From Methanobrevibacter sp. (GTDB lineage: Archaea; Methanobacteriota; Methanobacteria; Methanobacteriales; Methanobacteriaceae), in contig NZ_JAFQQZ010000041.1 of the NCBI RefSeq assembly GCF_017410345.1, positions 1-59,135 on the forward strand: a stretch of 59,135 bases of DNA. Direction: 5' to 3'. The first letter of the stretch is position 1. Each line of letters opens with the position of its first letter. Position numbers and translations under genes: made by a program. The notes beneath the pieces are model-generated. The model did not search any database. It saw only the letters and a list, made by a program, of their open reading frames with translations, and had not been told where the DNA came from. Of this stretch, positions 7,129 to 55,932 are shown piece by piece.

Positions 7129-7204
7129 TAAATCTTTAAAAGAAAAATAAAAGTATAAACTATTATTCTTATTCTATAACTATAAAACTCTATTTGGTGT
7201 GAAT

Positions 7205-9244
7205 ATGGAAATTGGTGTAGTTGTACATGGTCCGGGAATTGTTGATTCCGGTTGGGCTAAGAAGATCATTGACATTTTATCTAATTTCGGTAATGTCCGT
7301 TGCCGTTTGGGAGGAACAATGGGCAGGACTGCGGTCATTGATGCCGGTTTGGAGGATGTTATTGACATATCATTGAAATTGTTGCCTAGCCAGTCATTGG
7401 AACTTTTCAATAGGGAACATGCTGATGTTATTTTCCTATTGAATTATGGAAAATCCCCTGAAACTGGACGTGTTTTTGGATATAAGGTGTTCACTCACTA
7501 CTTTAAGCAGATTTCCAATGAGGATTTCCTGGCTACAAATCATAAGCCATTGTATGAATCAAGCATTCCTGTAATTCAAATAGAAAGGCCTGGAGAAGAG
7601 GATGGCTCAATCATAAGCTGGAATGTGGTCTTGAATCAGCAATTGGCCAAAAGCAAGAAAAGCAAAAGGGCTATGTTAGGTTTAGGCAAAAAGAACATGC
7701 TCGAATCACTTTCATTTAATTTTGAGGAATTGTTCGATGGATTGAAGGAGGCTTTGGACCTGATTGAAGTCACACCTGAAGAGGTCGTTTCAGACTATCT
7801 TTCAAATCATCAGGAAGATGAGGATGAAAGGGAGATTGAGAGGATATTGGAAACCTATGAGGACTATGAAACCAGCCATTACACCTACCGTAAGATCCAT
7901 GGGGTAAGCCCTGATGAAAATATCTTTGTAAATGGCATAGTCATCGGATATTCCAATTCGGATTCCATAGTATTGGTTGCCCGTGATGGGCTGATTGTGG
8001 ACATTCTCAATGGAACCGTAAAATATCATGGATTGGAAAAACTAGGTCCTGTCGACTTGGAAAGGGTGATTGTAAAGACAGGTTTGCTTAGAAAATCAGA
8101 GGATGTGAACCCTCGTGTATTGTCCCATAATGAGATTTCTGTAGCGGACACTGAAAGAAATCTCTATTCTGGTGAGATTTCAGATGACGAGTATTCATTT
8201 AAGGTGGCTTATGTTGATCATGCGGCCTATGACATCTTCAAGTTCAAGGACTTTGACTTGGTTGTCACAATCGGTGATGACACTTCCTTGGTTGCTTCCG
8301 ACATATTGTATAGATTCAATATTCCAATCATCGGTATCACTGATGGAGACTTGGATAAGGTTGTTGAAAGCGGATTTGTAAATGAAAGGTCAACATTCAT
8401 TGAAGTCTCTTCAGGATTTGATGACATTGTCGGCCAATACATCCATGAAGAGATATTCTCATTAAAGGACATTTTAGAGATTCCATACGATGAGGATGCC
8501 AACTCTGTGGAAGAATTCAAGAACGCCATCTTCAAGGTATTCCAAGTTCATGTGATTGAAAAGGTGAAAGAGATCGTTCCAAGCTTTACCCAAAAGGATT
8601 GCAATTATGATGTTATTGCTTCCTATCACGAGGTTGTTGATGATAATCCTGAATTGGTTGAGAATTTGGATGAGTTCATTGATGGATTCGAATATGATGA
8701 TTATGAAGAGGAAGAGGAAGTCTATTTGGATGATGTTTACGATGCCCCTCTTGAAGAGGTCTATGTGGAAGATGATGTAGAAGAGATTTCTGATGCTCAG
8801 CTTGAAGAGATTATAGTGGAGCATGGATCCAGCGAATATGATGAAGTTTATTTTGACGATGAGATTTATTCTGATGAAGAGGTCTATCCTGATGAAGAGG
8901 ATGCCATTTATTACGATGAAGTTCCATATGAAGAGGCGATTGATGAGCCTCTAGTTGAGGAGATTTATGTAGAGCATGATTCAGATGATTCTCCAGTTGA
9001 AGAGATTTTTGTAGAACATAGTCCGGAAGAGGAAGTCATCTATGATGATGTTCCTGTTGAAGAGGTCTATCTCGATGAGGATTTGAATGATGTGGCTTCT
9101 GAGGAGCTTGTTGCCGATGATGATGTCGCTTCTGAAGAGTCTGCTGAAGAGATATCAGATGAAGATGACGGATGGGCTGAATATATTGAAGAGGAATTTG
9201 GAGAATCAGCAGGGGATTCAGAGGATTCAGAAGAACAGGATTAA
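7205..9244 (+). CDS. DUF2117 family protein with a long acidic tail
   Basis: The first part, up to about residue 470, matches the archaeal DUF2117 family as I know it. It begins [16 protein letters not shown] and has [17 protein letters not shown] and later [16 protein letters not shown], which resembles a nucleotide- or phosphate-binding fold. From about residue 480 to the end (679) the sequence turns almost wholly acidic. It contains imperfect repeats built on EEI[YFI]VEH, EEVY and DDEIYSDEE. Family members usually lack such a tail, so it is an extension of this lineage. I start at the ATG at 7205 behind TTGGTGTG. The function is unknown. Confidence 0.8.
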
Positions 9245-9344: not shown

Positions 9345-10322
9345 ATGGATTTTAATGAACTTGTAAAATCACTTCAGGAATTTGTAGGAGTCAGCAGAAA
9401 GAATTCCATTGAAAAGGTTACAAAGACTTTAGGTGAGGTCTATAATATATCTGGCGAGGTCCTTCTTGATTTTGGAGATGACGCTTCAGCCATTGACATT
9501 GGAAACAATCAGGTTATATTGCTTGCTGCCGATGGGATTTGGGGTCAATTGATGAGTGTGAATCCTTATTGGGCAGGCTATTGTTCAGTGCTTGTGAATG
9601 TTAACGATATAGCTGCAATGGGAGGAAAGCCAATAGCCATGGTAAATACAATGTCCATTTTTGATGATGAAATCTATGATGATCTCCTTCAGGGAATTGT
9701 CGACGGCTGTAAGAAGTTCAATGTTCCTATGGTTGGGGGACACCTTCACCCTGATTCCGAGTTCAATTCATTGGATGTGGCCATTGCAGGTATTGCCAAA
9801 AAGGATTCATTGATTACATCTGCAGGTGCAAATGTTGGAGACAAGGTTCTTGTAGCTATTGATACCGATGGCAGGCAACATCCTCAATTTGCTTTAAATT
9901 GGGATACAACCTATGAAAAGGACGATAAATTGGTCCAGGATCAGATAAAGGTCATGCAGGAAATTGCAGAGGCGCATCTTCCAACAGCTGGAAAGGATAT
10001 CAGCAATCCTGGAACTCTTGGTACTTTAGAGATGCTCCTTGAGGCATCTGGTGTTGGGGCTTGTGTTAATCTTGAATCAATTCCAAGAAATCCTGATGTT
10101 GAATGGGAGGATTGGCTTAGGGCTTATCCTGGTGCTGCCTTTGTCTTGACAGCAAAGGAAGAGAACTGTCAGGAAATCATAGACACCTTAAGCCCATATT
10201 CATTTGAAGTTGCTGTTGTCGGTGATGTAATCGAAGAAAAAGTGCTTTATTTGGAATATGGTGAAGAGAAAGCGGTTTTATTTAGCCAAGAAAAAAATCC
10301 TGTTTTAAAGAGGAATGATTAG
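9345..10322 (+). CDS. Methanogenesis marker protein 2 (AIR synthase-related)
   Basis: This 325-residue protein belongs to the PurM/ThiL/SelD kinase superfamily. [15 protein letters not shown] near residue 43 is the metal/ATP-binding Asp-rich motif, and [17 protein letters not shown] and [11 protein letters not shown] are the other conserved blocks. The overall sequence matches the marker-2 family, which is found in essentially all methanogens but has no proven reaction. I start at the ATG at 9345 behind AAGGTGTAA. The upstream in-frame extension overlaps the DUF2117 tail and is not credible. Confidence 0.86.
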
Positions 10323-10818: not shown

Positions 10819-11643
10819 ATGAATAAAAAAATAGGAATTATATTAGGAGTTGTATTCTTAACCTTCTTATTAATCGGAGCATCCAGCGCAGGATGGTTTG
10901 ATTTCTTAGGTGATGAAGCATCTGCTGATAACGATGACAGCACTTTAGTTGTTGGTTTCGATGCAGAATTCCCTCCATATGGTTACAAAGACGATAACGG
11001 GGAATATGTTGGATTTGACTTAGACTTAGCACAAGAGGTTTGTGACAGAAACAACTGGACTTTAGTGAAACAGCCAATAGACTGGGACGCTAAGGACAGT
11101 GAATTAGACTCTGGTTCTATCGACTGTATTTGGAACGGATTTACCATCAACGGTAGAGAAGACGACTACACCTGGTCTGAACCTTACATTGACAACAAAC
11201 AAGTAATTGTTGTAAAAACTGATTCCGGTATCGACGATTTAGATGACTTAGAAGGTAAAATCGTAGAAACCCAAAAAGACTCCTCAGCTTTAGCAGCTCT
11301 TGAAGGAGATCAAAAACCATTAGCAGACACCTTTGATTCATTAACTCAAATTGCTGACTATAACACCGCATTCATGGACTTAGAATCCGGTGCATGTGAC
11401 GCAGTTGCAATCGATATTGGTGTAGCTCAATACCAAATCAGCCAAAAAGGCAGTGACCAATACAAAATATTAGATGAGGAAATTTCCTCTGAACAATATG
11501 GTGTAGGTTTCAAAAAAGGTAATGATGAGTTAAAAGACCAAATCCAAGCTACTTTAGACGAAATGTTTGAAGACGGAACCGTTGAAGAAATCGCTAAAAA
11601 ATACGATGAATTTGGTGTTCCAGGTTCTCTTATTCAAAAATAA
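10819..11643 (+). CDS. Amino acid ABC transporter substrate-binding protein
   Basis: This 274-residue extracellular binding protein belongs to the family 3 solute-binding type (polar amino acids). It has an N-terminal signal/anchor helix without a lipobox cysteine, then the first lobe (VVGFDAEFPPYGY, GFDLDLAQEVC) and the second (ETQKDSSALAAL). The ligand is probably a polar amino acid, but I cannot say which. It has GGTGTAAAT as a ribosome binding site. Codon choice is of the highly expressed type (many AAC, GGT, TTA). A strong terminator follows, so it is likely made in excess over the permease and ATPase encoded downstream. Confidence 0.9.
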   Translation: MNKKIGIILGVVFLTFLLIGASSAGWFDFLGDEASADNDDSTLVVGFDAEFPPYGYKDDNGEYVGFDLDLAQEVCDRNNWTLVKQPIDWDAKDSELDSGSIDCIWNGFTINGREDDYTWSEPYIDNKQVIVVKTDSGIDDLDDLEGKIVETQKDSSALAALEGDQKPLADTFDSLTQIADYNTAFMDLESGACDAVAIDIGVAQYQISQKGSDQYKILDEEISSEQYGVGFKKGNDELKDQIQATLDEMFEDGTVEEIAKKYDEFGVPGSLIQK

Positions 11644-11656
11644 GTGATATATTCTT

Positions 11657-11694
11657 AGTTTATGCATAATTTATTATGTATAAACTTTTTTTTT
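11657..11694 (+). terminator. Strong hairpin terminator after the binding-protein gene
   Basis: A 14-base stem (arms 11657-11670 and 11673-11686, one G.U pair) with a two-base loop is followed directly by a run of T. It sits between the binding-protein gene and the permease gene. Confidence 0.75.
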
Positions 11695-11884
11695 ATTCTT
11701 TAACTAATTTTTAAATTTAAATAAATTATTTGAATCATTTAATTTTAAAAAACATTATTTAAATAATTTATTTAAATTTATTTAATTAAAATATTCCATA
11801 TTTAGAGTTATCTAATTAAAAATATGCAATATTTAGATTTATTTAATTAAATTAAGTTTTTATTTTCATTTTGGAGAATTTTAA

Positions 11885-12538
11885 ATGTTATTAAGTAAAG
11901 TTATTGAAGAATTGATGTGGGGTATGGGCACTTCAATTGAAATCTTCTTGCTTACATTGCTCTTTTCCATTCCTTTAGGGCTTGCAGTGGCCGCAGGAAG
12001 AATGAGCAGCTTCAAGCCATTGCAATGGTTCATGAAGGCTTATATTTCAATCATGAGAGGTACTCCATTGATGCTGCAATTGATTGTGGTGTTCTTTGGA
12101 CCATACTATATTTTCGGGATGACCCTTTCAAGGGATTTCAGGATGATTGCAGTTATCATCGCATTCACCATCAACTATGCCGCTTACTTTGCAGAGATTT
12201 TCCGTGGAGGAATCGAATCCATTCCAAACGGCCAGTATGAGGCTGCACAGGTCTTAGGCTATAATAGAATAGAGACATTCTTCATAATTATCTTGCCTCA
12301 AGTGGTAAAGATAGTGCTTCCTTCCATTACCAATGAGGTAATCACTCTTGTTAAGGACACTTCACTTTCATTTGTGCTCGCAATTCCGGAAATGTTTACT
12401 GTTGCAAAGCAGATTGCAGCAGCTGAAGCATCCATTTCAGCATTGCTGATTGCAGGTGCCTTCTATTATGTATTCAATGCGCTGGTTGCAATTCTTATGG
12501 AACGCTTTGAAAAGAGGTTGGATTATTACGATACATAG
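11885..12538 (+). CDS. Amino acid ABC transporter permease
   Basis: This 217-residue membrane protein of the HisM/GlnP type has about five transmembrane segments. The EAA loop, which contacts the ATPase, reads YEAAQVLGYNRIETFF near residues 118-133. The N-terminal FKPLQWFMKAYISIMRGTPLMLQL block is also characteristic of polar amino acid permeases. GGAGAATTTTAA precedes the ATG. It forms the membrane core of the transporter with its neighbours on either side. Confidence 0.92.
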   Translation: MLLSKVIEELMWGMGTSIEIFLLTLLFSIPLGLAVAAGRMSSFKPLQWFMKAYISIMRGTPLMLQLIVVFFGPYYIFGMTLSRDFRMIAVIIAFTINYAAYFAEIFRGGIESIPNGQYEAAQVLGYNRIETFFIIILPQVVKIVLPSITNEVITLVKDTSLSFVLAIPEMFTVAKQIAAAEASISALLIAGAFYYVFNALVAILMERFEKRLDYYDT

Positions 12539-12575
12539 GAGAGATATCGAAAAATTTTAATCAAGAGATGATACT

Positions 12576-13259
12576 ATGAGTTTATTGGAAGTTAAGAATC
12601 TTAAGAAAAGTTTTGGCGACAATGTTGTCTTGAAGGATATCTCTTTTAATGTTGAAAAGGGTGAAGTCTTGTCCATCATCGGCCCATCAGGATCCGGTAA
12701 ATCCACATTGCTTAGATGCATCACTGATTTGGAGACTGAAGACAGCGGAATAATCAATTTTGATGGAACATTCGGTTTGGTGTTCCAGAACTTCAATCTC
12801 TTCCCTCACCATTCTGTAATGAAGAACATTGCAAATGCCCCTATAAGAGTTCAAAAGAGGGATAAGGAAGAGGTTTACGCTCATGCAAGGGACTTGCTCA
12901 AGAAGATGGGATTGGAGGATAAGGAAGATGCCTATCCTTCCGAATTGTCTGGTGGACAGCAGCAAAGGGTATCCATTGCAAGGGCATTATGCATGAACCC
13001 TGACATTCTGTTCTTTGACGAACCTACCTCTGCACTTGACCCTGAGCTTACCGGTGAAATCCTGCAGGTAATCAAGGATTTGGCTGCAGAGCATATGACA
13101 ATGGTGATTGTAACCCACGAGATGAATTTCGCTAGAAATGTGTCTGATACCATTATCTTTATGGATGGTGGAGTCATTGTAGAGCAAGGATCCCCTGAAG
13201 AGGTGTTCTCATCAGACAACCAAAGAATGAAAGAGTTCTTAGGTAAATTCTATGAATGA
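12576..13259 (+). CDS. Amino acid ABC transporter ATP-binding protein
   Basis: This is a 227-residue ABC ATPase. Walker A is GPSGSGKST near residue 38, the Q-loop is [10 protein letters not shown], the signature is LSGGQQQR near residue 127 and Walker B is [13 protein letters not shown]. The family is GlnQ/HisP. The segment between Walker A and the Q-loop is a little shorter than usual for GlnQ. The gene follows the permease after 37 bases, with GAGATGAT before the ATG. It energises uptake by the same transporter. Confidence 0.93.
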
Positions 13260-13571: not shown

Positions 13572-15125
13572 ATGCTAATTAAAATTAATGGAGAAGATGT
13601 GGATATTCCTGAAGGTTCTACCATAAGGGATGCTATAGAGCTTTCAAACGCTCCTTATAAGAAAGGTAGTATCGTTTGTCTTATCAAGGGAGAAAGCGAG
13701 ATACAAAGCAACATTCTCAAGTATAAGATAAAGACACCTAAGGGAAGTATTCTCATTGAATTGGAAGTTTCTGAAAAATCACAGCCTTTAACTGATTTCT
13801 TCAAGGAAAACTACTCTCAGTTTGTTTCCAATAATGTTCGTTGGGAAACCTCCAATGAAGTGGCTATCGGCCCTGTCAGTTCCAATTTCGAACCGTCACA
13901 TGATGAGTTTGCATACTTTGACAATGAGGTTCTTATTAGCCTCTCAGGATTTTCAAATGATGCCACTCACATAATCTTTGTGAAGGATGACCACACAAAT
14001 GTCTATGGTGTTCCGAAATACAGTGACCGTGGAGTCTTTGCAAGGGTTATAGGTGGAAGGAAAACATTGTTTTCACTCACTGATGATGATGAGATCCTGG
14101 CTATCGAACCTATAATAGAGCGCAGTACAGTTAGGGAAAGTACCGGCGGTTCAAACTTGGATGAGGTTTTGGAGGAAGGAAATCAATTGTTCACCTATGT
14201 TCTTTTTGAACCAAACTTCAATTCCCCTAAGTCTGTTGAACATCTGTTCTCACTCATTAGAAACGACAGGATTGAAGTCAGCTTTGAATCAAATTCCTTT
14301 GTTGGTTTCTATGAACTGACAGGTTTGACCAAGGAGAAAGAGGAGATTGCTGAACGTAAGAGAGGAACAGTCACCTTGAGAAACGATGGATTCGGTAAAG
14401 GTAGAGTTTATATTTATAGAGAAGACAGGGTTAGAGCTGAAACCCACACCAGCCTAGCTACAGTGAAGCAGGGAATGGAATTGTTTGACATTGCCAAAAA
14501 GGGAGATTTCATCACTGTAAGAAGCAGTCCTGACAGGATTATGCTGCAGATGATGACTCAAAAGGATGCAGAGGAAAAACTGCAGGCCTTAGGTGTCAAG
14601 CATATCCGGACTGGAAATGATGATGATGATGCAATCATTGTAACCCAAGAGCCTGAAAGCACTGTTGGAATCCTGGAAGCCGGTGAAGTCACTACCTTTG
14701 GTTTGGCTAGCGATGAATTGCTCAAGGTCAAATTGACCGATAAGGCTCCAAGGACCAGATGGTATCTGGAAAAGATCACTGGCCTTGCAGAAAAGCCGGT
14801 TGGAACATTGAAGGTTTACTTTGCGGTTCCGGACATGAACATGTTCATGTTCCACGGGGATACCGACGAATCCAAGGGACTTATTCCGGAAAACATTCCA
14901 ACTGACAAGATGGAAGCGGGAGAGATTGGAGTGACAAACATGTCCCGTAAGAACTTAGGTCTAATTGGTATTAGAACCATTGATACCGATGAGTTCGGAC
15001 CTACCGGTGAGGCATTCTCCGCTACAAACGTTGTCGGTAAGGTTGTTGAAAACATTGAAGGCTTGAACAAGCTTAAAGATGGGGACACTCTTTATATTTA
15101 TGAAGTTTACGAGGAGGACGAATAG
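13572..15125 (+). CDS. mmp3: Methanogenesis marker protein 3 (MCR activation)
   Basis: This is a 517-residue protein of the UPF0288/marker 3 family. It opens MLIKINGEDVDIPEGSTIRD, a ubiquitin/ThiS-like start, and has the late block MNMFMFHGDTDESKGLIPEN. Marker 3 is known as a component of the ATP-driven complex that reductively activates methyl-coenzyme M reductase. I choose the ATG at 13572, behind GAGGCAAG; upstream in-frame codons give an unlikely leader. It is the first gene of a compact 3-6-5-15-17 series. Confidence 0.9.
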   Translation: MLIKINGEDVDIPEGSTIRDAIELSNAPYKKGSIVCLIKGESEIQSNILKYKIKTPKGSILIELEVSEKSQPLTDFFKENYSQFVSNNVRWETSNEVAIGPVSSNFEPSHDEFAYFDNEVLISLSGFSNDATHIIFVKDDHTNVYGVPKYSDRGVFARVIGGRKTLFSLTDDDEILAIEPIIERSTVRESTGGSNLDEVLEEGNQLFTYVLFEPNFNSPKSVEHLFSLIRNDRIEVSFESNSFVGFYELTGLTKEKEEIAERKRGTVTLRNDGFGKGRVYIYREDRVRAETHTSLATVKQGMELFDIAKKGDFITVRSSPDRIMLQMMTQKDAEEKLQALGVKHIRTGNDDDDAIIVTQEPESTVGILEAGEVTTFGLASDELLKVKLTDKAPRTRWYLEKITGLAEKPVGTLKVYFAVPDMNMFMFHGDTDESKGLIPENIPTDKMEAGEIGVTNMSRKNLGLIGIRTIDTDEFGPTGEAFSATNVVGKVVENIEGLNKLKDGDTLYIYEVYEEDE

Positions 15126-15158
15126 ACTATTTCAAATAGTTGTTTAGGAGGAATTATT

Positions 15159-15638
15159 ATGCCTGCAAATTTATGTATAACTCCAGATTTAGGTAAAGAG
15201 GACATGGATCCTGAAGTTTCAACAAGGATGATCATTTTAAGTTCAAAGGCAAATGTTAGTGAAAGCGAGGTTGTAAACTTCCTGCACATGCTTAACTTGC
15301 CTATCACAATCAAATGGACTTGTTATGGAGCCATGATTAGTGGTAAGGATGAATATGTGAAACAAGCTATTCGTGAACTCCGTAAATTGGACCCTTATGG
15401 AATTTTCACCAAGGAAAGAGGTTTCGCTCCAGGAGACCCAAGAAGATGCAGAGGTCACAGATATGGACCAAGGGAAGGTTTCCACCAGATGGAGAAGGAA
15501 TTCAGAATTCTTGATTATGTCGGAGAGGCTTTGAAGAATCCGAAGGAAGTTGTAATCGAGAAGAAGGAACCTGTTTCCGTTGATTACTTTAAGGAAATAT
15601 TGGAAGAAGAAGAAAACAAAAAAGAGGATGATAAATAA
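15159..15638 (+). CDS. mmp6: Methanogenesis marker protein 6
   Basis: This 159-residue protein matches the marker 6 family from start (MPANLCITPDLGKEDMDPE) through RKLDPYGIFTKERGFAPGDPRRCRGHRYGPREGFHQME (key part: the basic RCRGHRYGPREG). The C-terminal 25 residues are acidic and probably disordered. It has no proven reaction. Its constant linkage to markers 3, 5, 15 and 17 points to MCR activation or maturation. AGGAGGAATT is a strong ribosome binding site 33 bases after the marker 3 stop. Confidence 0.88.
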   Translation: MPANLCITPDLGKEDMDPEVSTRMIILSSKANVSESEVVNFLHMLNLPITIKWTCYGAMISGKDEYVKQAIRELRKLDPYGIFTKERGFAPGDPRRCRGHRYGPREGFHQMEKEFRILDYVGEALKNPKEVVIEKKEPVSVDYFKEILEEEENKKEDDK

Positions 15639-15731
15639 TAGGAAGTTTATGGGAAAATATTTAAATTGATTAGTTTATTTATTTTATTACTAATAAAAAA
15701 ACTTTCTATTTATAATTACGAGGATGATATT

Positions 15732-16238
15732 ATGGTAAAAGTAGCTATTTATCCACCAAATTCATTGGTTTTAGCTGACTTGATTGAGAGGAAAGGTCAC
15801 ACTCCTTTGGCTCTTCAAAAACAGATAAGACAAAAGATCAAGGACCCGGAGATTGATTCTCCTCCAATGAACATTACAGAAGAAGACCCGATCAATGGAT
15901 TGAAGTATGCGGCTATTGAAGTTCCTTCAGGGGTTCGTGGAAGAATGTCTATTATCGGACCTCTTATAGATGCTGCAGAGGCAGCAATCATAGTTGATGG
16001 CGCTCCATTCGGTTTTGGTTGCGTAGGTTGTGCAAGAACAAATGAATTATCAATTTTCTGTTTACGTAAAAAGGACATTCCTGTCTTGGAAGTCGTTTAT
16101 CCTGATGATGAGGATGGAACAAGACTTATGGTAAATCAAATCATGGAATTCCTGGATTCCCTGCCTGGAGGTGGAGGAGACCTGGAAGGAGACAGTGATG
16201 TTTTAGGTGAACCAATAGCAAATAAGGGAGGAGAATAA
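15732..16238 (+). CDS. mmp5: Methanogenesis marker protein 5
   Basis: This is a 168-residue protein. It opens [20 protein letters not shown] and carries a cysteine cluster [17 protein letters not shown] near residues 100-116 that could bind metal. The match is to the marker 5 family. I place the start at the ATG at 15732 behind GAGGATGAT; the longer in-frame version begins with an implausible hydrophobic leader. The function is unproven, but the gene is fixed in this cluster. Confidence 0.87.
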
Positions 16239-16239
16239 G

Positions 16240-17475
16240 ATGGTACAGATAGCATTGGTTTCCTGCGGTACCGAATACAGTGGTATCCAAAAGGAAATCG
16301 AAAAGGCAGCTCTTAAGTTCGGAGCGGAAATCATTCTTCCTGAAATTGATTTGGATTACATCAATGAGGCTTATGAGAAATTCGGTTTCTCCGCTCAAAG
16401 CTCAAGCTTGAAGCTTATGATAGCAAGGGCAATGTCCATTGTCGAAGGAAAGTGCAAGCCTGATGCGGTATTCATTGCAACCTGTTTCAGATGTGCGGAA
16501 GGAGCATTGGTAAGAAACGAAGTAAGACGTTTCATTCAAAACAATACCCGTATTCCAGTAGTTACCTATTCATTTACTGAAAGAACCAAAGCGGATGAGC
16601 TCTTTATCCGTATGGAAGCATTGGCAACTACCGTTACAAGAAGAAGCATTCTTGCCCGTGAAAAGCAAGAGGGTCTTACCCTTGGACTTGACTCAGGTTC
16701 AACAACAACAAAAGCGGTGCTTATGGAAAACAACAAGGTTATTGGAACCGGTTGGACCGCTACAAAGGACATCATTGCATCTGCCCAGACTGCAGCTGCA
16801 GAGGCATTTGAAGGCACCGGCTACAAATGGGAAGATGTTGACGGAATAGGAACCACCGGTTACGGCAGATTCACAATGGGTCAGGAATTCGGAGCAGAGC
16901 TTATCCAAGAGGAATTGTCTGTAAACGCAAAAGGTGCAGTATACTTGGCGGATTGCCAGAAAGGTGAAGCTACCGTATTGGATATCGGTGGTATGGACAA
17001 CAAGGTAATTACCGTAAACAATGGTATTCCAGATAACTTCACTATGGGAGGTATCTGTGCAGGTGCATCCGGAAGATTCCTGGACATGACTTCCAGAAGG
17101 TTGGATGTTGACATTACAGAGCTTGGCCCACTTGCGGTGCAAGGTGACTGGAGAAAGGCTATGCTGAACTCCTACTGTATTGTATTCGGTATTCAAGACT
17201 TGGTTACCACTCTTGCTGCTGGAGGTTCAAAGGCAGATGTTGCAGCTGCTGCATGTCACTCCGTATCCGAACAGGTATACGAACAGCAATTGCAGGAAAT
17301 CGACATTCGTGAACCTTTAATCCAAGTAGGTGGAACAAGTTTGATTTCTGGGCTTGTTGAAGCTGTAAGTGAAACCTTAGGTGGAATTGAAGTCATCGTA
17401 CCGGAATACTCACAACATATCGGTGCTGTAGGTGCGGCATTGCTTGTATCCGGTATGGGAAATAGACATGAATAA
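16240..17475 (+). CDS. mmp15: Methanogenesis marker protein 15 (BadF/HgdC-type ATPase)
   Basis: This 411-residue protein has an N-terminal domain of about 140 residues followed by an ASKHA ATPase domain of the BadF/BcrA/HgdC kind. The phosphate-binding loop is [13 protein letters not shown] near residue 147. The cysteine of [13 protein letters not shown] and a second in [12 protein letters not shown] correspond to the [4Fe-4S] ligands at the dimer interface of HgdC-type activators. Those activators use ATP to push low-potential electrons into a partner, which would suit Ni(II) to Ni(I) reduction of F430. The gene starts one base after the marker 5 stop, with GGAGGAG inside it, so translation is coupled. 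Confidence 0.9.
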
Positions 17476-17582
17476 TTAATTATTGAAATTAGTTCTAATA
17501 TTTATTATGAAATATTTTTTCTAATTTTCAATTTTTTTATAAATATTTTTTATAATTAATATTATTTTAATAGAGTGATTAT

Positions 17583-18149
17583 ATGTATATAGAATCAAAT
17601 GACCCGGAAGGAGCAAAAGTCTACGATATGATCATCAGACAAATCCTGCAGGATTTGGTCTTGCCACCTTCCATTGATGACATGAGGGCTTATGTCAATC
17701 CAGATGAGGTTTGCTTCATCATAGCCATTAAGATGAGAAAGACTTCCAAGCACATTACCTTAAAGGAAGTGGCTAAAGTTAACTATGAAGCTGAAGATGA
17801 CACCACAGTTGTCCTGATTGACAATGAGAATTATCTCCCTCATATTCTTAGAAAGCTTTGGGAAACCAATGGCCGGGAAAACGTTCATCAGCCAAGCAGA
17901 TATGTCATTCACTTGCCTGGACAGCATAATGTTTCAGACTTGGTGGTGGATGATCCTCAACAGAATCTTAAAAGAAGAATCTATGATGCGATATTCAGGA
18001 TAGTTCCTGAAGGATTTAAGATAATGAAGGACATTTCCCGTGATGATATAGTTTCCGTCATTGCAACTGATGAGCTCATCAAGGACGAATGGGTTGAAAA
18101 GGCTGAAGAGTATATTGTAGAATTGAATACTCCAAAGACTTGGGATTAA
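17583..18149 (+). CDS. mmp17: Methanogenesis marker protein 17 (MCR activation)
   Basis: This 188-residue protein matches the marker 17 family, with LPPSIDDMRAYVNPDE near residue 25 and QPSRYVIHLPGQHNVSDLVV near residue 105. Marker 17 is known in the MCR activation complex together with markers 3 and 7, McrC and AtwA. It is 107 bases from marker 15, with GAGTGATTAT before the ATG. Marker 7, its usual partner, is not in this window. Confidence 0.88.
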   Translation: MYIESNDPEGAKVYDMIIRQILQDLVLPPSIDDMRAYVNPDEVCFIIAIKMRKTSKHITLKEVAKVNYEAEDDTTVVLIDNENYLPHILRKLWETNGRENVHQPSRYVIHLPGQHNVSDLVVDDPQQNLKRRIYDAIFRIVPEGFKIMKDISRDDIVSVIATDELIKDEWVEKAEEYIVELNTPKTWD

Positions 18150-18249
18150 ATCTTTTTTGATTTAATCTTATTTATTTTTTTTCAATCATTAGATTTTCAT
18201 TTTTTTGGGGTTGTTTTAATTTTTTGTCCAATTTTTAATGGTTTTTTAA

Positions 18250-18313
18250 GAACAGTTCGGATATTTCAAAAATTTGTTCGTATGTATTAGGAACAAATAG
18301 AAAGCTTTAAATA
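18250..18313 (+). promoter_or_regulatory. nifB promoter with GAAC dyads
   Basis: GAACAGTTC at 18250-18258 is a short palindrome. ATTTGTTC (18272-18279) and GAACAAAT (18291-18298) form an 8-base inverted repeat with an 11-base spacer. TTTAAATA at 18306-18313 is a good archaeal TATA box, so both dyads lie where a repressor or activator would act. They do not fit the NrpR pattern GGAA-N6-TTCC. Confidence 0.55.
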
Positions 18314-18424
18314 CTATACAGTTTATAACGATAGTTATAAGTTTAAGTCTAAACGAATAAAATTTGTAAATTGTAGTGGGATAATAAAATTGGAGAAAAA
18401 ATTAAGTTAATTAAAATGATGAAT

Positions 18425-18473
18425 AATTAAAATTATTTAAAATTATTTAAAATTAATTAAAATTAATTAAAAT
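18425..18473. repeat. Ten-base tandem A/T repeat in the nifB leader
   Basis: The unit AATTATTTAA/AATTAATTAA repeats about four and a half times with exact 10-base period, ending just before the ribosome binding site TGAGG of nifB. Confidence 0.7.
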
Positions 18474-18492
18474 ATTGTGTTGAGGTATTGCT

Positions 18493-19383
18493 ATGACTAA
18501 AAAAGATATAACTTGTGGAGGAAGTCATAAGGGTGCAAAATTTGCACACATTACAAAAGTGCATCCATGTTATAATGAAAAGTTGCATGATAAGGTAGGT
18601 AGAGTCCATGTGCCGATTGCTCCTAAATGTAACATTGGATGTAATTTCTGTATAAGATCAATTAATACTGATGAGGACAGGCCTGGTGTTGCAGGTTCAA
18701 TCATGGATGCGGACGCCGCAGTGGAACATGTATTGAAGGTAACCGAAGACAGTGCAATCACTGTAGTGGGGGTTGCAGGTCCTGGAGATTCCTTGGCTAA
18801 TGAGGCTACCTTTGAATTCTTTGAAAAGATCAATGAGGTGAAGCCAGACCTAATCAAATGTATGAGTACAAACGGTCTCTTGCTTCCAAAGTATGCGAAA
18901 AGGCTTGCAGAGCTTGGTGTAAATACTGTCACTGTCACAGTCAATGCAGTGGACCCGGAGATATTAAAGGAGATCAACGGATTCATAGTCTATGAAGGCA
19001 AAGCTTATAAGGGACTTGAAGCAGCTGAAATCCTTTCCAGAAATCAATTGGAAGGAATCAGAAAGGTTTCAGAACTTGGTATTGTAGTGAAAGTCAATAT
19101 TGTTCTTATCCCTGGATTGAACGATGAGCATATTGTGGAAATCGCTAAAACCGTAAAGGAATGCGGAGCAGATCTGGTGAATGTCTTGCCACTCATTCCA
19201 TTGAATAAGATGGCTGACTATCCAAGACCTGGATGTGGAGAGATTGAAAAGGCACGTAGTGATGTGGAGGAATACCTTCCTGTATTCAGGGCATGCACTC
19301 AATGCAGAGCGGATGCTTATGGAATTCCTGGAAAGAAACATGAGGACCATCACTTAGGAAACGCTCCTCAGTCTCACTATTAA
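18493..19383 (+). CDS. nifB: NifB-type radical SAM cluster maturase
   Basis: This 296-residue protein has the radical-SAM motif CNIGCNFC (Cys46, 50, 53). It also has the NifB hallmarks HPCYNEKLHDKVGR (Cys26) and C-terminal ACTQC (Cys268, 271), which hold the precursor clusters. NifB fuses two [4Fe-4S] units and inserts carbide and sulfide to give the [8Fe-9S-C] L-cluster. There is no NifX domain, as usual for stand-alone archaeal NifB. No nitrogenase gene is in the window. Its neighbours are the MCR activation genes, and that activation complex has been reported to contain L-type clusters, so I infer that it supplies MCR activation. TGAGGTATT precedes the ATG. Confidence 0.9.
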   Translation: MTKKDITCGGSHKGAKFAHITKVHPCYNEKLHDKVGRVHVPIAPKCNIGCNFCIRSINTDEDRPGVAGSIMDADAAVEHVLKVTEDSAITVVGVAGPGDSLANEATFEFFEKINEVKPDLIKCMSTNGLLLPKYAKRLAELGVNTVTVTVNAVDPEILKEINGFIVYEGKAYKGLEAAEILSRNQLEGIRKVSELGIVVKVNIVLIPGLNDEHIVEIAKTVKECGADLVNVLPLIPLNKMADYPRPGCGEIEKARSDVEEYLPVFRACTQCRADAYGIPGKKHEDHHLGNAPQSHY

Positions 19384-54190: not shown

Positions 54191-55843
54191 TTAACGTTTT
54201 GACACTTGTGAATAATTTGATCTGTAAATGAATAGAATGTTCTTTTTATCTTTTTTTGCAATTTTTTGAGCTTCTTCATAATCTTCAAAAAACTCTATTT
54301 CATACTTATTCTCATTATTCTCTTCATTCAATGAATTTATCTTATCATACAGGCTCTTTCCCACTTCATCAGTTAAGATCAGATTAGTGTTTGGATTTTC
54401 AATCAGATATTCATCTAAGAATTGGGACAGTTTATCTTCATCTATCTCTTCACATGTGATTCCATACTTTCCACCAATGATGATATAATAATCGTCAATG
54501 TCCTTGATCATGTTTATTGAGCTTTCAATGGCTTTTGTATTGATGCCAGGATTGATTTCCTCAATGATTATCAAGTCATTTTCAGAATCGATTTGTTTCA
54601 CATTTGTTCGCCCATCGATTCCTTTAAAGTTTGATAAAGCATTCTGAATTGTTTCTCCATCGATGCCTAATGCTAGAGCAGTTGTGAGAGATACTAAAAC
54701 GTTTAGCACATGATGAGGTCCAGGAGCAAAGCAATGCACTATCAATTTACCATTTATTAATTTTTTATCAATTTTCTTCAAGTCATGATAAACAATTTTG
54801 ATAGTGGTCTTGTCAATGTCATAATCAATTGATTCACAGTAGACATTTGCATCATGGTCATTTAGTGAAAAGCTATTGATTTTATCTTCATATCCTACCT
54901 TTTCCTCTTCATAAAATTCATTCAATGTTTCATGTTCAATGACTACCAATGGGGATTTAAATACTTGCCTTTTGGCTTCTCTTGCATCTGACTGTCCTTT
55001 TGCAATGGAATAGTTTTCAACCAGATTGGTCAGAATTCCAATGTCTCCCAAGTCACAGATTCCCAATGAATTTTCAAATATGGCAACATCGTAATTCAAG
55101 TCCTTATATGGATTATCATTAAACTCTTCTTGAATGTCACTCTCTTCAATTCTTTCCTCCAAATCCAAATTCTTATCGCAAATCGGAAATGTGCTGCATT
55201 TTGGATGTGCTATCTTCTTAGCTAGTTGAATGGTGCTTATGATATTTGCAGGAGTTATGCTGATGTTCTTCTGCAAGATAAGCTTCTGCTCGTTATCATC
55301 GCTTTTTCTAAATAGATAGGCACCTAGACTTGATAATAGCAATGTGTTCCTATTGTTTTGTGAGAATATTTCTTTCAAGAGGAATGCTGTGCTTGTCTTT
55401 CCTTTTACACCAGTTATTTCAATGGTTTTTATGTTCTGCTTTTCTGTTTCCTCTTTCCAGTCTGATAAAACGAGTTCTGTAGCTTCATGATGGTTGATAA
55501 TGTCATATTGATTTAGAATAACTTGATTATTTGAATCAATAGAATCGGCTATTTCAATCAATAATTCATTCATATTTAATGAAGAGTGAATAGGATTGAT
55601 AATCAAGTCTTTTTCATCATCTTTCTTTTCAATCTTATCTATTGAATTTAATCTGAGCTGATTTCTAAATGAATCCAAGTCTTTTATTACATTAACGTTA
55701 TAAGTGTCTAAAAGACTTTCATCCTCTTCCTTCAATGTATTGTACAAGTCATATGCAAATACATTTTCATAGTTTTCTGATTTGGCAAGTTCAGAGGATA
55801 TCTTGACTCCCCCATGTGTCAAATCAACTAAAAAGACATTCAT
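54191..55843 (-). CDS. cfbE: Coenzyme F430 synthase (MurF-like)
   Basis: This is a 550-residue ATP-dependent ligase of the Mur family. It opens MNVFLVDLTHGGVKISSELAK and has the P-loop ITGVKGKTSTAFLLKE near residue 145 and PGPHHVLNVLVSLTTALALG near residue 395. CfbE closes the carbocyclic ring to give F430, the nickel cofactor of MCR. It is longer than the family members I know, partly through an acidic insert around residues 220-245. AGAGTGA decides the ATG at 55843 over a GTG nine bases upstream. Confidence 0.88.
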   Translation of the reverse strand: MNVFLVDLTHGGVKISSELAKSENYENVFAYDLYNTLKEEDESLLDTYNVNVIKDLDSFRNQLRLNSIDKIEKKDDEKDLIINPIHSSLNMNELLIEIADSIDSNNQVILNQYDIINHHEATELVLSDWKEETEKQNIKTIEITGVKGKTSTAFLLKEIFSQNNRNTLLLSSLGAYLFRKSDDNEQKLILQKNISITPANIISTIQLAKKIAHPKCSTFPICDKNLDLEERIEESDIQEEFNDNPYKDLNYDVAIFENSLGICDLGDIGILTNLVENYSIAKGQSDAREAKRQVFKSPLVVIEHETLNEFYEEEKVGYEDKINSFSLNDHDANVYCESIDYDIDKTTIKIVYHDLKKIDKKLINGKLIVHCFAPGPHHVLNVLVSLTTALALGIDGETIQNALSNFKGIDGRTNVKQIDSENDLIIIEEINPGINTKAIESSINMIKDIDDYYIIIGGKYGITCEEIDEDKLSQFLDEYLIENPNTNLILTDEVGKSLYDKINSLNEENNENKYEIEFFEDYEEAQKIAKKDKKNILFIYRSNYSQVSKR

Positions 55844-55932
55844 TGCTTTCACTCTTGATAATAATTGAATTGTTAAAAAATAGAATTGCTGTTTATAAAT
55901 AAAAATGATAATTAGAAAACATTTAAGAGTAA

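Follow-up and report, generated by a model that had tools for sequence, protein, structure and literature searches.

Ramirez-Amador et al. (2025) described the methyl-coenzyme M reductase (MCR) activation complex of Methanococcus maripaludis (structures 8S7V, 8S7X and 9H1L), in which three L-cluster-like [8Fe-9S-C] clusters were found (PMC12176620). For methanogens, even those that have no nitrogenase, the same authors described NifB as essential and as a probable participant in forming the clusters for MCR activation (PMC12176620). Here we analyse a stretch of 59,135 nucleotides from Methanobrevibacter sp. (contig NZ_JAFQQZ010000041.1, referred to as the window in this text), in which a stand-alone nifB gene directly follows a row of methanogenesis marker (mmp) genes associated with MCR activation. 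The genome of the window comprises 63 contigs with 1.84 Mb in total and is 95.75% complete. We report the gene content, the gene order and its conservation, the absence of nitrogenase, the acceptor ligands and the conservation of the nifB promoter.

It had long been unexplained why nitrogenase-free methanogens keep an essential nifB, and a NifB homologue had already been listed among the methanogen-specific genes (Kaster et al. 2011, PMC3087415). The 2025 structure offered its "probably" as an answer. A preliminary description of the window, made from the sequence, gave the same explanation, which is well supported but not new: the supply of the MCR activation complex by NifB is already known as a published proposal (PMC12176620). 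Useful additions to it are presented here: a survey of gene order, the residues at the acceptor sites and the absence of a loop cysteine.

A nifB gene behind MCR-activation genes

Profile matches identified six intact genes, mmp3-mmp6-mmp5-mmp15-mmp17-nifB, at 13572-19383. They all lie on the plus strand, head to tail, in the order given by the preliminary description, and the intergenic gaps from mmp3 to nifB are 33, 90, 1, 107 and 343 bp:

13572..15125, plus strand: mmp3, MCR activation complex subunit (TIGR03268, 599 bits, cut-off 234; homologous to 8s7v chain J, E 2e-96)
15159..15638, plus strand: mmp6 (DUF2102), no assigned role (TIGR03272, 150 bits, cut-off 126; PF09875)
15729..16238, plus strand: mmp5 (DUF2112), no assigned role (TIGR03271, 237 bits, cut-off 140; PF09885)
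16240..17475, plus strand: mmp15, activase-type ATPase of the BcrA/BadF family (TIGR03286, 719 bits, cut-off 456; PF01869)
17583..18149, plus strand: mmp17, subunit beside the outermost L-cluster (FeSIII) of the activation complex (TIGR03291, 183 bits, cut-off 67; homologous to 8s7v chain G, E 3e-19; FeSIII position from PMC12176620)
18493..19383, plus strand: nifB, stand-alone archaeal-type radical-SAM L-cluster synthase, 296 aa (TIGR01290, 279 bits; 7bi7, E 1.5e-131; cluster ligands)

The window thus shares with the M. maripaludis complex its homologues of Mmp3 and Mmp17, both of which exceed the curated cut-offs, and McrC and Mmp7, encoded elsewhere in the genome, keep the seven residues at the cluster sites. 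It differs in that nifB directly neighbours mmp17. The neighbourhood of nifB is not discussed in the main text of the structural paper, and we found no open-access paper that discusses a nifB-mmp17 neighbourhood (subscription papers and preprints were outside the search).

It is very probable, partly on the strength of the literature, that NifB supplies L-clusters to the MCR activation complex. The nifB product would be an ordinary archaeal NifB. By the chemistry shown for this enzyme in earlier work, it would join two [4Fe-4S] units and add a carbide derived from S-adenosylmethionine (SAM) to give the L-cluster, [8Fe-9S-C]. The main acceptors in this organism, which has no nitrogenase, would be McrC and Mmp7, with three such clusters carrying electrons to F430, and we infer that the NifB of the window feeds these sites and that Mmp17 helps in the loading. 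The Mmp17 protein borders the outermost cluster, and the position of nifB behind its gene may go back to an ancestral class-wide operon that coupled cluster synthesis to the activation machinery. Later, in the genus of the window, nifB would have acquired a longer spacer and its own promoter. Genetic support for this supply comes from the class-wide order with its operon-tight spacing and from the acceptor residues conserved in a nitrogenase-free genome. Mmp17 would be the protein to consider first as a loading partner, so that the question can be put to the test in laboratory methanogens. The findings are also in line with the idea that the nitrogenase-type cofactor first evolved in methane metabolism and that nitrogen fixation came later.

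Absence of nitrogenase and conservation of the acceptor sites

A profile search of all contigs of the 95.75% complete genome found no nifH, nifD, nifK, nifE or nifN. The only PF00148 match is CfbD (TIGR03282, 529.8 bits) and the only full-length match to the NifH family is CfbC (NF033200, 436 bits); both belong to F430 synthesis. The observation of the preliminary description that no nitrogenase gene is in view consequently holds beyond the window, since CfbD and CfbC are the only homologues of component 1 and NifH in the genome. A nitrogenase operon could be hidden in the missing 4%, but this seems unlikely. The organism has the first enzyme and the L-cluster intermediate in common with the molybdenum nitrogenase cofactor pathway (NifB to NifEN to NifDK), but lacks NifH, D, K, E and N.

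The genome encodes McrC (contig C30) and Mmp7 (contig C34, where the open reading frame (ORF) after mmp7 looks like mmp10). The M. maripaludis complex binds FeSI through McrC H49 and H118, FeSII through McrC C12 and C55 and possibly Mmp7 C90, and FeSIII, at the Mmp7-Mmp17 interface, through Mmp7 C143 and H84 (PMC12176620). Alignments to the M. maripaludis proteins, in which the positions were counted by hand, showed all seven residues to be identical (McrC C12, H49, C55 and H118; Mmp7 H84, C90 and C143); six of them are assigned ligands in M. maripaludis, and C90 is a possible one (PMC12176620). Because the cluster sites are conserved in full, a demand for L-clusters exists in this nitrogenase-free organism.

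The NifB protein and its ligands

The NifB of the window is a single-domain protein, in which the TIGR01290 match covers the radical-SAM part and the NifX domain is absent. The nearest solved structure is NifB of Methanothermobacter thermautotrophicus (7BI7, 7JMA, 7JMB), likewise a single-domain archaeal NifB with all ligands of the K-cluster and the SAM cluster, whose gene also stands behind mmp17. This species is genome G017 of our set; over 288 residues its NifB matches 7bi7 without a difference, and it shares 67% identity with that of the window. With 278.8 bits, the window NifB stays below the curated TIGR01290 cut-off of 343.65. We rejected the interpretation of this low score as a sign of a non-NifB protein, because the model (441 positions, with matches ending near 283-312) includes a second domain and because 0 of 150 Methanobacteriales genomes reach the cut-off, the structurally solved M. 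thermautotrophicus NifB included.

Ligand assignments were taken from PMC9692996, PMC6053413 and PMC7145814. The alignment places the radical SAM motif CX3CX2C at C46-C50-C53 and the K-cluster ligands at C26, H39, C123, C268 and C271 (C18, H31, C115, C260 and C263 in M. thermautotrophicus, PMC9692996); the loop glutamate E61 is present as well. However, the loop cysteine capping the SAM cluster is absent from the window NifB, with Asp60 in its place (codons 59-61, 18667-18675). The claim that all cluster-binding cysteines are there is thus correct for the SAM and K-cluster ligands, but not for this residue. In the resting enzyme, the unique iron of the SAM cluster has this cysteine (C62 in Methanothrix) as its ligand, and the residue was termed strictly conserved (PMC9692996). 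M. thermautotrophicus, which has a nitrogenase, keeps it as C52, whereas the nitrogenase-free organism of the window does not, and it is retained in Methanothermobacter-type NifBs. It is absent in 15 of 15 aligned Methanobacteriaceae NifBs, including the nitrogenase-bearing G033 and second copies beside nitrogenase-like genes.

Of 49 NifBs outside the class Methanobacteria, 48 have the cysteine, and all aligned Methanobacteriaceae have lost it; the loss is therefore a family-level change and no sign of a special role for this gene. In the loaded structure the K-cluster is not bound by this cysteine, which for this reason was not counted as defining; the predicted membership in the NifB family rests on the remaining residues and the close similarity to 7bi7. 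A bolder version of the proposal seems rather unlikely to us. It would make the NifB of Methanobacteria a committed part of MCR activation that passes L-clusters straight to Mmp7 and McrC through Mmp17, without a carrier of the NifX/NafY type, and Methanobacteriaceae would have lost the SAM-capping cysteine because their NifB is loaded and discharged continuously, unlike the restrained NifB of nitrogen fixers.

In genome G148, we noticed tandem nifB copies (L021 373-1206 and 1330-2196), the first of which has a degenerate C-terminus (ending in RKRKSNYS, without the CRADAYG motif) and a changed RPG motif.

Conservation of the mmp17-nifB order

Both genes were located in one set of 150 Methanobacteriales genomes and found together in 140. 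nifB lies directly downstream of mmp17 on the same strand in 130 of these 140, with a hit-to-hit gap of 43-622 bp; the comparison across Methanobacteriales that the preliminary description had proposed thus bears out the pairing. Nine of the other ten have the two genes on different contigs, and in G135 they are 3.3 kb apart with three ORFs between them. Phylum-level sampling gained one genome outside the order (G150, same class but another order), and the pair is present there too. The fetched neighbourhoods revealed an ancestral string, DUF2117-mmp2-mmp3-mmp6-(DUF2111)-mmp5-mmp15-mmp17-nifB-mtnA, with overlaps and small gaps; the gap from mmp17 to nifB is 4 bp in G017, -4 bp in G003 and 2 bp in G150. 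In G150 the string is broken, with mmp3 about 92 kb off, and mmp17 and nifB are still together. A chance neighbourhood can be ruled out because the order is conserved over the class. The neighbourhood is as the preliminary description had it, except that the string begins further upstream in the window, with two more genes:

7199..9244, plus strand: DUF2117 gene, first of the conserved string (PF09890, 403 bits; same position in the neighbourhoods of relatives)
9345..10322, plus strand: mmp2 (AIR-synthase/SelD-like), second of the conserved string (TIGR03267, 437 bits, cut-off 365)

G020, a complete methanogen genome, looked like an exception without mmp15, mmp17 and nifB. We rejected it as such, since a stretch of 11,001 N ends exactly at the start of the match, so that the region is masked. 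N-masking at or beside the cluster mimics gene loss in several genomes of genus g4 (G020:C1:1165000-1176000, L009 9692-13001, L010 1-2500). This genus also carries a diverged second mmp5 copy where Methanothermobacter has the DUF2111 gene (L009 5269-5877, L010 8127-8768, L012 5238-5846).

Beyond the class, NifB served as query because Mmp17 is too variable. The sample consisted of 61 named archaeal nifB loci from Methanotrichales, anaerobic methanotrophic archaea (ANME), Methanomicrobiales, Methanosarcinaceae, Methanomassiliicoccales and one Nitrososphaeria; Methanococci are not part of it. No mmp17 neighbour of nifB was found among the sampled loci of Halobacteriota or Thermoplasmatota, and the mmp17-nifB link is, as far as sampled, a trait of the class Methanobacteria. 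A nifB outside the nif cluster was reported from strain FS406-22, for which a further function was suggested (Lie et al. 2022, PMC8809328). In six Methanosarcinaceae loci (L089, L091, L093-L096), mmp2 comes after nifB, mostly behind 7-deazaguanine (QueC/QueD-like) genes. This arrangement would suit a NifB cluster destined for another protein of the neighbourhood (the Mmp15 activase, Mmp5 or Mmp2) and not for McrC and Mmp7, as would the lack of an assigned role for Mmp5, Mmp6 and Mmp15 and their absence from the named subunits of the M. maripaludis complex. However, L-like clusters in methanogens are known only from McrC and Mmp7, whose sites are conserved here, which makes another destination most improbable. 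In the Nitrososphaeria locus, from a metagenome-assembled genome (L124 3575-7443), NifB again has no loop cysteine, and its gene is close to one for a DUF2117 protein.

Several points weigh against a supply of the activation complex by NifB. The carbide in the clusters of the complex still awaits spectroscopic proof (PMC12176620), and the transfer of clusters from NifB to McrC and Mmp7 is a step that we infer. mmp17 lies within the fetched flanks of 0 of the 61 nifB loci outside the class, many flanks being short. All five informative genomes of genus g13 (part of the nine mentioned above) carry mmp17 and nifB on different contigs, and we judged this separation to be real from the fetched neighbourhoods. 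nifB also has mtnA and Trm5 as conserved neighbours, neither of which is evidently linked to MCR. Finally, the window NifB is without the loop cysteine that nearly all NifBs outside the class keep.

The constancy of mtnA and Trm5 beside nifB, together with the absence of the order from the loci sampled outside the class, could mean that the order is kept only through slow rearrangement of this region. We think this improbable, because comparison of the neighbourhoods showed that mtnA and Trm5 shift and invert and an ABC transporter moves while mmp17 and nifB stay together, and because overlapping genes or gaps of 2-4 bp imply co-transcription.

nifB in nitrogenase-bearing relatives

Methanobacteriales genomes with at least five component-1 genes were taken as nitrogenase-bearing (n=23). 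nifB is inside the nif cluster in none of the 23; judged by coordinates, it is either on a different contig or separated from the cluster by about 178 kb or more. It adjoins mmp17 in 16 of them. A second nifB is found beside nitrogenase-like genes in G021, G067 and, by coordinates, G102 (gene identities around it were examined for G021), and there the first copy stays with mmp17. The mmp17-linked nifB is thus the basic copy, and nitrogenase is an additional user. The core of the preliminary description, an L-cluster supply from NifB to the activation complex, is supported by the conserved order, the absence of nitrogenase and the acceptor residues, but its word "dedicated" was too strong: it fits nitrogenase-free genomes like this one and is wrong for the clade, where a single nifB must also serve nitrogenase in 23 genomes.

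It is possible, though somewhat doubtful, that NifB is a general supplier of L-clusters for MCR activation, nitrogenase and nitrogenase-like reductases, and that its position at mmp17 only reflects history and gives no clue to the user that counts. Nitrogenase-bearing genomes do use the single nifB at the mmp17 site, three genomes of the window's own genus (G022, G093 and G137) carry nitrogenase-like genes with one nifB each, and the genes are separated in the fragmented genus g13. However, no other plausible user of L-clusters is in view in the genome of the window, and the pairing itself seems to be under selection, given its tight spacing over a deep divergence and its persistence in G150.

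The spacer and transcription of nifB

The spacer between mmp17 and nifB contains three candidate elements:

18299..18318, plus strand: probable nifB promoter with a purine-rich transcription factor B recognition element (BRE) and a TATA-like box, AGAAAGCTTTAAATACTATA; strong conservation across 12 genomes of the genus in a spacer that otherwise varies
18273..18297, plus strand: inverted repeat TTTGTTC-N11-GAACAAA, possible operator immediately upstream of the promoter box; the only match in the window, with zero mismatches; left arm conserved, right arm partly
18325..18338, plus strand: perfect inverted repeat ATAAC-N4-GTTAT, possible operator close to where transcription is expected to start; found once in the window vs 0.04 expected by chance; conserved in the genus

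Footprinting in the 12 genomes agrees with the earlier suggestion that nifB has its own promoter and, together with T-rich stretches after mmp17, supports a separate nifB transcript in the genus of the window. The mmp17-nifB gaps of 4, 2 or -4 bp in the outgroups are as expected of an operon and point to one shared transcript there, so that the description of the link as one of neighbourhood and not of a shared transcript fits this clade but probably not the outgroups. Upstream of nifB we found no NrpR nitrogen operator (GGAA-N6-TTCC), which has 3 matches elsewhere in the window, near chance. A scan of the window for sigma-70 promoters and terminators gave results near chance as well; these models are not suited to archaea.

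Other features of the window

Between mmp2 and mmp3 lies an amino-acid ABC transporter of three genes (10819-13259), for which the best models are cystine transporters, with scores below the cut-off. Its location within the cluster shifts between genomes; in G008 it is directly behind nifB (L014 3871-6054). The DUF2117 protein of the window is 681 residues long, vs about 340-410 in other families, and has a long, acidic, repeat-like C-terminal tail. A gene for CfbE, the coenzyme F430 synthase (NF033197, 342 bits), is located on the minus strand at 54191-55852, ~35 kb from nifB.

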